A DNA stretch of 50,303 bases from Haloferax larsenii JCM 13917 (GCF_000336955.1 NZ_AOLI01000020.1:1-50303); one strand, 5' to 3'; positions 41,856 through 45,910 are shown, counted from the stretch's first letter. Notes: generated by a model not told the origin, from the letters alone. Translations and numbers: made by a program.

Positions 41856-41899
41856 AGGCCAGCGTTACCGAGCGACGGATAAAAAGAGCGTGATGCCGG

Positions 41900-42922
41900 T
41901 CACGACTTCGAGAGATACCCATCGAGCGTGTCGAGGTTCGCCGTGGCCATTCGCTCGGTCACGGGCACGTACCCAACTCGTGCGGGCACCGTCGACATGG
42001 ACTGTTGAAGGTAGTAGCGAACGAACGCGGCGACCTCGGGGCGCGACAGTTCGTCCGCAGCGACGTAGATGTACAACGGTCGAGAGAGCGCCCCGTAGGT
42101 ATCGCTCTTGGCGTGGTCCGGCGACGGCGACACGCATCCCGACCCTTCGTCGATGGAGACCGCTCGCACCGCGTCCTTGTTCTGGAGGTAGTACGCGAGG
42201 CCGAAGTATCCCATCGAGTACGTGGCGTCGCTGACGTTCCGGGCGATGACGTTGTCCTGTTCTGTCGTCTCGTGGTCGGTCCGCTGGTCGGTGTCGGACC
42301 CGAGGACGGTCTCACCGAAGTAATCGAACGTTCCCGAGGCGGTCGTCGGGCCGTAGAGGTCGAGCGGTCCGTCGGGCCACTCCGGTCGAACGTCACTCCA
42401 CGTCGTTGCACCGCCGACGCCCCAAATGTCGGCAAGTTCGTCCAGTGTGACGCAGTCTACCCAGTCGGCATCGGGGTTGACGACGACCGTGATGGCGTCG
42501 ATGGCGATTTGGAAGCCAATCGGCTCGACGCCTGCGCGCTCGCACGCGGCGACTTCGTCATCGGCGATTGCTCGACTCGCGTCGTTGATCGCGGTTCGGT
42601 CCGAACAGAAGAAGTCCGCAAATCCGCCGCCGGTCCCGGTCGATGTGACCGAGACCGTGACCTCGGAATGCTCCTTCATGAACGCGTTGCCGACGGCGAG
42701 TGTCAGCGGGTAGACGGTGCTGCTCCCAGCAATTCGGATGCGTCCAGAGAGGTTTTCTGGGGTCGCGGTCGCCGTGGACTCGTCTGCGGGCGTGCTTGCT
42801 TCGCCACCGAGACAGCCCGTGAGTGCGGTGAGTCCGAGAGAGCCAAGCGTTCCGAGGGCTGTCCGGCGATTGACGTGCGCTGTGCTTCGTGTCGAGGGGT
42901 CTGTGGGTGTCGAGTCAGTCAT
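41900..42922 (-). CDS. PstS-like phosphate-binding lipoprotein
   Basis: The 340-residue protein has a Tat-like signal (NRRTALGTLGSLGLTALTGC; lipobox Cys at 37) and a Ser/Thr linker. A PstS-type domain follows: RIRIAGSSTVYPLTLAVGNAF (about 60-80), SVTSTGTGGGFADFFCSDRTAINDASRAI (about 92-120), VDCVTLDELADIWG, and YGPTTASGTFDYF. GSST and STGTGGG are the phosphate-pocket motifs of PstS/SphX proteins. No pstC, pstA or pstB lies nearby. It follows a response regulator and a histidine kinase on the same strand at gaps of 25 and 46 nt. It may serve as an external sensor for that kinase instead of a transporter subunit; this is inference. Confidence 0.82.
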   Translation of the reverse strand: MTDSTPTDPSTRSTAHVNRRTALGTLGSLGLTALTGCLGGEASTPADESTATATPENLSGRIRIAGSSTVYPLTLAVGNAFMKEHSEVTVSVTSTGTGGGFADFFCSDRTAINDASRAIADDEVAACERAGVEPIGFQIAIDAITVVVNPDADWVDCVTLDELADIWGVGGATTWSDVRPEWPDGPLDLYGPTTASGTFDYFGETVLGSDTDQRTDHETTEQDNVIARNVSDATYSMGYFGLAYYLQNKDAVRAVSIDEGSGCVSPSPDHAKSDTYGALSRPLYIYVAADELSRPEVAAFVRYYLQQSMSTVPARVGYVPVTERMATANLDTLDGYLSKS

Positions 42923-42968
42923 TTTTGGCGGGCGAAGGTGTCACGTCCGATTGCTGCATGCGATGCGC

Positions 42969-44930
42969 TCATACGATGGAGGCTGCGCTCCCGACGTTCG
43001 ATTCGACGTCGGCCACGTCGGTGAACTCGAAGCGCGCGCCGCCGTCGGTGGCCGTCTCGATGCTGATGGTCCAGCCGTGGGCGTCGGCTACTTGTACGAC
43101 GATTGGGAGGCCGAATCCGGTGCCGCCGTTGGCACGGTTGGTCGTGTAGCCCGGTTCGAGAACCTCGTCTCGGTCCGCAGGGTCGATTCCGGGACCGTCG
43201 TCTTCGACGTAGAAGCCGTGTGTCTCAGAGAGCGCGCCGATTCGGACGCTCACGTCGTGTCCTCCGTGGTCGACCGCGTTCCGAAAGAGGTTCTCGAAGA
43301 CGTGGCCGGCGAGGTTCGGGTCGGCCGCGAATCGAAGCGAGTCGTCGACGGTGAGTGTCGCGTCCTTGGTATCGACGTGCGACCACGCCCGCTGGGCAAC
43401 GTCGTGTAACGTCACCGGAAGCGTGTCCTCGACCCGACTCTGGAGCGCGAGAACCAGCGCGTCGTCGATGATGGCGTCGATTCTGTCGAGCGACTCCAAA
43501 AGCGGGGCGACGTGGTCGCTCGCGACGTCTTTTTCGAGGAGTTCTGCGCGCCCAATCGCGACGTTGAGTGGGTTTCGAAGGTCGTGCGAGAGCACGTGTG
43601 AGACGGTCTTCAGTTGCTCGTTGCGCGCCTCGACTTCGTCCATCATCTCGTTGAACGACCGGCCGACGACCGCCATCGCCTCGCTTTCGTCGTCCGGGTC
43701 GATTCGTTCCGTGAGGTCGCCGTCGGCGCAGGCCTGCATCACCTGGGCGTAGGTCTCGGCGGTTCGTTCGAGATGTCGGCGGCGACGCTCGGAGGCCTCC
43801 TTTTCGGCCCACGCCTCTTCTCTGGCGTCTTCCGCCTCTCGTCGCGCTCGCTCGGCGGCGACTATCTGGTCACGGAGCGACGTGCGCATCACGTCGAACG
43901 CCTCGTAGAGGTCCCCAAACTCGTCTTCGCGGTCGCGCTCGATGGGGACGTCGAGGTTACCATCGCGGAGCGCAGTCGCTTTCGCGGCCAAGGTCTGCAC
44001 CGCGTCGACGGTGTCACGACCGATGGTAGCGGCGATGACGCCCGCACCGATGCCGACGACCAACAGCGTGGCGAGAATCTGCGTGAGGATGTCTGTCCGA
44101 AGCGCGTAGGCCGAGTCAGTCGGGACGCGAGACGTGACGACCCACGCGTGCGCATCGAGGTGCGCATAGCCGACCTCGGTCGAGGTTTCCTGCAGCGACA
44201 CACCCGAGAGGTACCCCGAGGAATCACCGTACTGCGACCCGTCTAGGCTGTCGGAACTCAGTATCCGTGATTCGTCTTCGGCGAGGACGACGGTTCCCTC
44301 GGGGTCGACGACGACGAACCGGCCGTCGGCGTTGTCGTGGAGGTGTGCTCTCGAGAGCGATTCGAGGTTCGCAACGGCGATGACTGCGCGGTTCGGTTCG
44401 GCGGGGATGGCCGTCGCAAAGAGAATGACCGGCGCGGCGTCCGGCGAGGGACGGAACGGGTCGGAGATAACCACGTCACCCTGCGTTCGTTGCGCCAGCG
44501 CGGTGAACTCCTGTCGGCCGTAGTACTTCGTCACCGACTGTGCCGAGGCGATGCTGGCACTCCCGGTGCCCGTGATGACGGTCTCGTTTTTCGTGTCGAT
44601 GTAGTAGGCCGCGTCGATGTCGCTGTCGCGTTCGACCACCGACCAGAGGTAGAGACTGATCTCGCGCTGGTCGCCCGACTGGAAGGCCGCAGACTCCGAG
44701 AGCGAACGCATCTGCACCTCCATTCGAGTGAGCCACTCATCGAGGTTCTGCGCTTGAATCTCGGCGTCCGCAACCATCTCTGTCCGCGTTTCGTCGCCGA
44801 TGACGTCGTTCGCGTGGACGTACGAGTACCCGCCGACGAGCGCAATCGCGAACGCCACGACGCCGAGGACGAGGACGAATTTGACAGCGTACCGCTGTCT
44901 CACGAACCGGGGAAGGAGACGCGATTTCAT
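42969..44930 (-). CDS. Cache-HAMP sensor histidine kinase
   Basis: The 653-residue protein starts MKSRLLPRFVRQRYAVKF at 44930 (a GTG one codon upstream is unlikely). It has a membrane helix (about 18-40), an extracellular dCache-like domain of about 230 residues, and a second helix (about 281-305). A HAMP domain, coiled coil and a second HAMP-like segment (QACADGDLTERIDPDDESEAM) follow. The HisKA H-box VSHVLSHDLRNPLNVAIG has the phospho-His near 446, and the HATPase has NLFRNAVDHG, DDGPGIDP and GTGFGLPIV. It should sense an external ligand. It sits 25 nt after the HalX response regulator gene and 46 nt before the PstS-like gene. Phosphate is a candidate signal only because of that neighbour. 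Confidence 0.9.
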   Translation of the reverse strand: MKSRLLPRFVRQRYAVKFVLVLGVVAFAIALVGGYSYVHANDVIGDETRTEMVADAEIQAQNLDEWLTRMEVQMRSLSESAAFQSGDQREISLYLWSVVERDSDIDAAYYIDTKNETVITGTGSASIASAQSVTKYYGRQEFTALAQRTQGDVVISDPFRPSPDAAPVILFATAIPAEPNRAVIAVANLESLSRAHLHDNADGRFVVVDPEGTVVLAEDESRILSSDSLDGSQYGDSSGYLSGVSLQETSTEVGYAHLDAHAWVVTSRVPTDSAYALRTDILTQILATLLVVGIGAGVIAATIGRDTVDAVQTLAAKATALRDGNLDVPIERDREDEFGDLYEAFDVMRTSLRDQIVAAERARREAEDAREEAWAEKEASERRRRHLERTAETYAQVMQACADGDLTERIDPDDESEAMAVVGRSFNEMMDEVEARNEQLKTVSHVLSHDLRNPLNVAIGRAELLEKDVASDHVAPLLESLDRIDAIIDDALVLALQSRVEDTLPVTLHDVAQRAWSHVDTKDATLTVDDSLRFAADPNLAGHVFENLFRNAVDHGGHDVSVRIGALSETHGFYVEDDGPGIDPADRDEVLEPGYTTNRANGGTGFGLPIVVQVADAHGWTISIETATDGGARFEFTDVADVESNVGSAASIV

Positions 44931-44955
44931 CACTAGACGGTTCCACGCGTCGTCA

Positions 44956-45522
44956 TCAGTGGCGCAGTACTACCTCGCCGAGTTCCTCGGTGAGAAGGTC
45001 GTCGCGGGCGGCGTCAGCACGCCGGCTGGCGGCACGGTACTCGGCTTTCAGTTCGGCGAATTCGTCCGACATCGAGAGTGAACTGCCGTCACAGGCCGCT
45101 TCGAGGACGGCTTTCTTCCGGGCCAACGCGAAGAACTCGCGGACGTGCTCGTCGTACGACCGCCGGGTGAGTAGGTCTCGAACGGTCGAGGTGAGGTCCT
45201 CACGCCCGACCGGTTTCACGAGATAATCGTCGAACGGCATCTCGACGATGTCAACGTCGGGTTCGACGCCAGTGACCATCACGACCGGGCAGTCGTATCC
45301 ACGAGCACGGAGTTCCTCCAGGACAGCCTCTCCGCTTCGGCCGGGCATCTCTCGGTCGAGCATGACGACGTCGACATCGTGTGCTTCGACGACCTGAAGC
45401 GCGTCGTCGCCACCCGCGGCGGTGTGCACGCTGTACTCGTCTCGTAACCACGCCTCGTAGAGTGCTGTCAAGGAAGGCTCGTCGTCGACGGTGAGTACCG
45501 TTGGGAGTTCATCGCCAGTCAT
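44956..45522 (-). CDS. HalX-type response regulator
   Basis: The 188-residue protein has a receiver domain (about 8-118) with acidic pocket DD at 13-14, phospho-Asp at 56 (VVMLDREMPG), Thr/Ser switch VMVTGVE near 82-86 and Lys103 (LVKPVGRED). A HalX domain (about 120-185, YDEHVREFFALARKKAVLEAACDG then a coiled helix) ends it. HalX is a haloarchaeal output module of unresolved function, possibly protein or DNA contact. It is the first gene of an apparent operon with the Cache-HAMP kinase (25-nt gap) and the PstS-like gene. A dyad lies directly upstream of the start. The phospho-partner is therefore very likely the adjacent kinase. Confidence 0.92.
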   Translation of the reverse strand: MTGDELPTVLTVDDEPSLTALYEAWLRDEYSVHTAAGGDDALQVVEAHDVDVVMLDREMPGRSGEAVLEELRARGYDCPVVMVTGVEPDVDIVEMPFDDYLVKPVGREDLTSTVRDLLTRRSYDEHVREFFALARKKAVLEAACDGSSLSMSDEFAELKAEYRAASRRADAARDDLLTEELGEVVLRH

Positions 45523-45531
45523 GAGGGTTCG

Positions 45532-45553
45532 TGGCGTCAGCCCACAGACGCCA
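45532..45553 (-). promoter_or_regulatory. 7-8-7 dyad immediately upstream of HalX regulator
   Basis: TGGCGTC and GACGCCA are perfect inverted arms with an 8-base spacer, ending 10 bases before the regulator's ATG at 45522. This is an operator-like position and could mediate autoregulation by the operon's own HalX regulator. Confidence 0.45.
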
Positions 45554-45625
45554 ACTTGTTTTCAAGCAGACCAGATAGTTACTAAGTGGTTGCTATGAGA
45601 ACTCAATAGGCCTCATGTGCACTGG

Positions 45626-45705
45626 CGAGACGGTTCTCACCCGGTCGGGACGGTACTCACTCGGCCGAGACGATGCTGGCCCGGACGAGACGATACCGAC
45701 GCAGT
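45626..45705. repeat. Four degenerate 20-nt tandem units
   Basis: Units start at 45626, 45646, 45666 and 45686, each beginning CGAGACG or CGGGACG. A 20-nt period is close to two helical turns, so identical faces would align for a DNA-binding protein. Units diverge most in their second half. The array lies between the divergent promoters of the regulator and mptE. Confidence 0.75.
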
Positions 45706-45910
45706 GTGTCACACGCGGCCGCAATCGTCCAATCGTCAGACCCTCGTCCGACGCTGACCGTTCGACTAAGAGAAAACTTATACCATCCGACTCTAAAACG
45801 GTCCTGTGGACGCCGGAAGGGCACGCGGGTAGGGGTACACGAGTGCCATTCCGGCCCATACAGTTACACTCCTGAGCCACAGCTATGATGTACGCAATCG
45901 AGCGACAGCG

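Follow-up and report, generated by a model that had tools for sequence, protein, structure and literature searches.

In the LuxP-LuxQ system of Vibrio, the kinase has a Cache fold, binds no ligand itself and serves as the docking partner of a binding protein, and in the PhoR-PhoB system with PstSCAB-PhoU, PstS-type phosphate binding is linked to a two-component system. The membrane receptor CtpL of Pseudomonas aeruginosa reads phosphate via loaded PstS on its extracytoplasmic domain; the KD of this domain for phosphate-loaded PstS is 3.7 uM (PMC4926252). In CuaDSR of Ruminiclostridium cellulolyticum, a dedicated second solute-binding lipoprotein is encoded together with the kinase and the regulator, and the transporter has a binding protein of its own (PMC10384115), and AioXSR of arsenite-oxidising bacteria is an operon of an oxyanion-binding protein, a kinase and a regulator (PMC7533571). 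Haloarchaeal binding proteins also signal through membrane receptors, as in the pairs BasB-BasT and CosB-CosT of Halobacterium, where BasB and CosB, as well as two more putative binding proteins, are reported to copurify with transducers (PMC3579733). Few archaeal two-component pathways are characterised according to surveys, in which HalX is without documented function (PMC6944256, PMC5847659).

We analysed one contig of Haloferax larsenii JCM 13917 (NZ_AOLI01000020.1, referred to as the window, the whole stretch of 50,303 nt), which encodes a PstS-like lipoprotein next to a histidine kinase and a HalX regulator. This locus differs from each of the systems above. PhoR needs the transporter and PhoU, whereas the operon module here encodes neither; CtpL is a chemoreceptor that uses the transporter's own PstS, whereas here a separate PstS copy is tied to a histidine kinase. 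CuaDSR is bacterial, binds cellobiose and has an AraC-type output, and AioXSR detects arsenite via cysteine and acts through a bacterial sigma-54 type regulator. LuxPQ has AI-2 as ligand, a hybrid kinase and a binding protein that is not PstS-like, and the output of BasB-BasT and CosB-CosT is taxis via CheA and not a HalX regulator. The binding-protein-dependent scheme is already known in bacteria, and what is new is its archaeal kinase form, in which a PstS-type receptor goes with a HalX output. In the open literature we found no binding-protein-dependent archaeal histidine kinase, and because most subscription papers lay outside this scope, this is no proof of priority.

Layout of the operon and its three products

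The first-pass annotation had described the three genes as one tight minus-strand operon, and all three ORFs were found at that place and on that strand (Table 1), in the order regulator, kinase and PstS-like lipoprotein. The gaps of 25 and 46 nt that it gave agree with a kinase start at ATG 44930, and the first gap shrinks to 22 nt if the kinase starts at GTG 44933. Upstream, 388 nt separate the operon from a divergent MptE-like gene. The next gene downstream has its own TATA-like promoter, which is kept alike in sites with and without the operon, and because the gene keeps this promoter even in operon-less species, the operon very probably ends at the PstS-like gene.

Table 1. Positions of the operon genes and of neighbouring elements in the window
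Feature	Position	Strand	Remarks
REC-HalX response regulator	44956..45522	-	188 aa; receiver-site residues present
Sensor histidine kinase, dCache-HAMP-HisKA-HATPase_c	42969..44933	-	profile matches and predicted fold
PstS-family (TIGR02136 / PF12849) binding protein	41900..42922	-	340 aa; Tat lipoprotein without transporter
Promoter block CTATTGAGnnYTCATAGCAACC	45588..45609	-	same in 8/8 triad-bearing genus species
Dyad TGGCGTC-tgtgggct-GACGCCA	45532..45553	-	kept only in H. elongans relative
Cassette boundary, 44 nt	41856..41899	-	pstS-like stop to next gene; TATA-like promoter TTTTTATCC

The regulator matches the Response_reg (2e-21) and HalX (8e-15) profiles, with the receiver domain preceding PF08663, and its receiver site is intact (D13/D14, D56, T84 and K103). 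It is not an OmpR/PhoB-type winged-helix protein, as the match to PhoB covers the receiver only and the C-terminal part is HalX. HVO_1357 of H. volcanii was considered as a counterpart and rejected; it is a different regulator, of REC-HalX-GAF-Bat type, in an unrelated neighbourhood.

The kinase has a first transmembrane helix at residues ∼13–41, an extracytoplasmic dCache region at ∼36–280, a second helix at ∼277–306 and a HAMP domain at 306–355, followed by the HisKA H-box SHDLRNP at residue 449 and a HATPase_c domain in which the N, G1 and G2 boxes are kept. The dCache_1 profile match is 1e-6, which lies under the Pfam cut-off. The model of the sensor (pLDDT 81) aligned to solved dCache domains with Z of ∼20, and this predicted structure confirmed that the two transmembrane helices enclose a double Cache fold. 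The structures aligned to it include 5ERE (Z 17.5); in 5ERE (Dret_0059), a solute-binding protein is naturally fused to a dCache domain within one chain (PMC8694187). The Cache domain of LuxQ is tabulated in the same source without bound ligand; LuxQ was absent among the best 50 structures matched to the kinase sensor, which carries no weight either way.

Binding-protein genes also lie beside other members of this sensor family. Among 17 other sensor relatives examined, eight have a neighbour that looks like a siderophore-type binding-protein gene, and Pfam confirmed five of these, as a raw count from few genera. At eight loci (L093, L095, L097–L101 and L104), MCP transducers with related dCache domains adjoin genes of Peripla_BP_2 type (siderophore/cobalamin), which suggests binding-protein-mediated taxis to metal chelates. 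In the source genome itself, an OpuAC-type gene overlaps a dCache-HAMP-MCP transducer by 4 nt (L108:5869-9002, contig C34); the sensor of this transducer is related to that of the kinase, and the pair resembles the CosB-CosT betaine taxis pair.

The PstS-like protein scores 247.8 bits (1e-73) against TIGR02136 and passes the curated cut-off of 206.6. It carries export signals, namely the twin-arginine motif NRRTALG and the lipobox LTGC with C37. Phosphate-pocket motifs had been noticed in it, and GSSTV, TGTGGG, ASR and SGT are indeed present. The closest solved structure is 4JWO, a possible phosphate-binding protein of Planctomyces (39% identity, TM 0.89 by target). Two species pairs that are better resolved gave dN/dS of 0.07–0.25 for all three genes, indicating purifying selection, and a third, very close pair gave 0.56 for the PstS-like gene with few changes.

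Linkage of the PstS-like protein and the kinase beyond the genus

The search of haloarchaeal genomes for the triad that the annotation had proposed gave a clear result. With a threshold of E<=1e-80, the kinase is present in exactly 10 of 170 genomes of the family, from three genera, and the matching PstS is adjacent in 10/10. The linked PstS has its ten best matches in the same 10 genomes, all of them adjoining the kinase, and the next 20 PstS loci fetched are beside pstC without exception. Of the ∼60 close PstS loci checked outside this linked group, all but three are beside pstC, and none is beside the operon's kinase. The three exceptions, L027 in G010 and extra genes of the genus in G005 and G008, have neither pstC nor the kinase as neighbour. 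In one genome of another genus (G321), gene order and synteny are the same, and the identities are 57% for the regulator, 57% for the kinase and 55% for PstS. In a third genus (G122, L090:4612-8112), the order is kinase, PstS and REC at a different locus, and the regulator there is REC-only, so the module can persist without HalX.

In a maximum likelihood tree of 58 PstS proteins, a single branch (support 100/97) separates all nine kinase-linked rows from the rest, and linkage to the kinase is exclusive to this clade; it requires one change, compared with a mean of 8.6 when shuffled. The nearest neighbour of this clade is transporter PstS. Because the kinase-linked proteins form one clade that is nearest to transporter PstS, the tree is most simply read as a transporter receptor that was recruited once to the operon's kinase and retained since.

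Transporter-type genes that stand away from pstC occur as well. In two operon-less species, a pstC-less PstS gene of the transporter clade is situated between apparent porphyrin-synthesis genes and a RecJ-like gene (L155:6546-7574 and L156:7016-8074). In G008 (L157:4505-11493, contig C27), an arsenic-type cluster with an ArsR-type regulator, an ArsP-type permease and an LMWPc/arsenate-reductase-like gene also contains a PstS-like gene but no pst permeases; possible roles are scavenging or sensing of arsenate or phosphate.

A candidate three-component system and its competitors

A binding-protein gene thus lies in one operon with a kinase and a regulator and without its own permease, and binding protein and kinase are linked in evolution past one genus. 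We consider that the PstS-like lipoprotein, the kinase and the HalX regulator probably form a three-component system. The lipoprotein would be exported by the Tat pathway and lipid-anchored outside the membrane, where it would bind a small oxyanion, most likely orthophosphate. Liganded or empty, it may then dock on the kinase at its extracytoplasmic dCache domain, and docking would shift the balance of autophosphorylation and phosphatase activity via HAMP. The phosphoryl group would pass to Asp56 of the REC-HalX regulator, which would control gene expression, its own promoter probably included because of the conserved promoter block upstream (Table 1). Given CtpL/PstS, the haloarchaeal copurifications, LuxQ, 5ERE and the pairs of neighbouring genes, the proposed mechanism is the established three-component scheme fitted with a PstS-type receptor. 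In the original proposal of a binding-protein-assisted two-component sensor, the assisted kinase is well supported in comparative genomics by the clade-specific PstS, the constant adjacency, the shuffled gene order in one genus and the transporters' possession of their own PstS; phosphate as the ligand is only plausible, since the motifs match and positions 114 and 193 differ.

A different role for the lipoprotein would be that of an accessory receptor for one of the genome's Pst transporters, co-expressed with an unrelated two-component system. Its membership of the PstS family and its transporter-like pocket motifs fit such a role, as do the transporter-type PstS genes without adjoining pstC in the genus (L155–L157), but the three pstC-less genes of the genus group with transporter PstS and not with the kinase-linked clade. 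The annotation was right that no PstCAB genes are nearby; the contig lacks PstC, so the protein is not encoded as a PstSCAB subunit, and the only PstC matches of the genome are on two other contigs. A full pstCAB set that uses this binding protein from elsewhere had been named as a result that would speak against the proposal; two complete pst operons exist, and each carries its own PstS, and thus the PstS-like protein is not needed for transport. Moreover, the kinase-linked proteins are a separate clade found only beside the operon's kinase in three genera, which has lost residues that are near-fixed in transporter PstS (N103, N130, E209 and G229) and has residues of its own, for example L75, G78, D114, A126 and R294. 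An accessory transport role is therefore quite unlikely.

The kinase might also sense on its own, because the solved dCache domains closest to its sensor are amino-acid receptors that bind small ligands directly; the PstS-like protein would then be a soluble sink, a negative regulator or a scavenger, and not a presenter. Against this, an RxWY-type signature, which marks the amino-acid pocket in dCache sensors, is absent from 28 sensor relatives in a comparison made at the level of their consensus. The two-component form of CuaSR is still weakly responsive without its binding protein (PMC10384115), in line with direct sensing, but the co-inheritance of a clade-specific PstS would be left unexplained, and we regard this alternative as unlikely.

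If the lipoprotein does act as the presenting subunit of the kinase, the question is which anion it presents. Like transporter PstS, the kinase-linked clade has (near-)invariant pocket motifs, and the protein agrees with both transporter PstS and 4JWO at every family motif residue; on this basis phosphate is slightly favoured as the ligand. The clade is nevertheless fixed differently at two positions by the pocket motifs, with N to D at 114 and mostly A to T at 193, and hence the ligand could have shifted. Presentation of another anion, such as arsenate, phosphonate, sulfate or a phosphate ester, by a system that is not a phosphate sensor is a possibility to be taken seriously although it has well under an even chance; the PstS-like gene in the ars cluster of a genus member (L157) points in the same direction, and the match of all family motif residues points against it.

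Taken furthest, the three-component reading describes an archaeal phosphate sensor wholly apart from transport, in which a former transporter PstS lost several transporter-specific residues and is now the receptor subunit of a kinase with HalX output. We put this forward tentatively, at somewhat less than even chance. If true, it would be an archaeal counterpart of PhoR that works without the Pst transporter or PhoU. The operon would show how a transporter receptor turned into part of a signalling system, with clade-specific residues open to testing. As a compact system it offers a concrete input (a phosphate-type receptor) and a concrete output (HalX), both testable, in a genus whose genetics are well developed.

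History in the genus and the promoter region

Among the 15 species that make up the genus here, eight have the triad and seven have none of the three genes. These close, naturally operon-less species are ready-made controls. The H. elongans relative is 94–97% identical, with 97% in the kinase. In the operon-less species, folP/mptE and the downstream gene pair border the empty site, and these flanks are the same in nearly all species. Five of the seven empty sites retain the final bases of the pstS-like gene, matching the version found in the nearest carriers; for example, G013 has TCTCGAACGCCTGA as in its sister G006, and G011, G002 and G004 have GCGGACGGCTGA as in G007 and G008. On the tree of the flanking genes, presence of the operon switches five times or more, and the simplest reading is that the operon is ancestral and was lost several times by deletion. 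Recent insertion in the carriers was rejected because the empty sites keep these pstS-like ends and because another genus (G321) has the operon at the same place. Joint loss of adjacent genes says little about a joint function, and the linkage beyond the genus is the stronger evidence.

A dyad near the start of the regulator gene had been suggested as its binding site. The dyad is real, with perfect 7-bp arms (TGGCGTC-N8-GACGCCA) 10–31 nt before the ATG, but the H. elongans relative is the one other genome that has the same sequence. In shuffles, perfect 7-bp arms around a loop of 3–14 nt are rare for a 60-nt leader (0.9%) and unremarkable over 200 nt (13%), and as RNA the dyad is an unexceptional leader hairpin (z of about -1.1 against shuffles). 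We rejected it as an operator, because it is not conserved past one near-identical species and the hairpin barely beats shuffles. The conserved promoter block is a better candidate than the dyad for an activator or autoregulatory site. It forms an imperfect inverted repeat directly upstream of the TATA-like CTTARTA and is absent from all seven empty sites. At up to three mismatches, five triad-bearing genomes contain only their own copy of the block and two triad-less genomes contain none, so that regulon targets sought by it in these seven genomes gave no candidate gene.

The flank beside mptE also varies. The other 13 species have the folP gene (DHPS) between mptE and the operon locus. It is missing here (45523-45910 of the window) and in the H. 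elongans relative, and the best folP homologue in both genomes is only 50% identical and located elsewhere.
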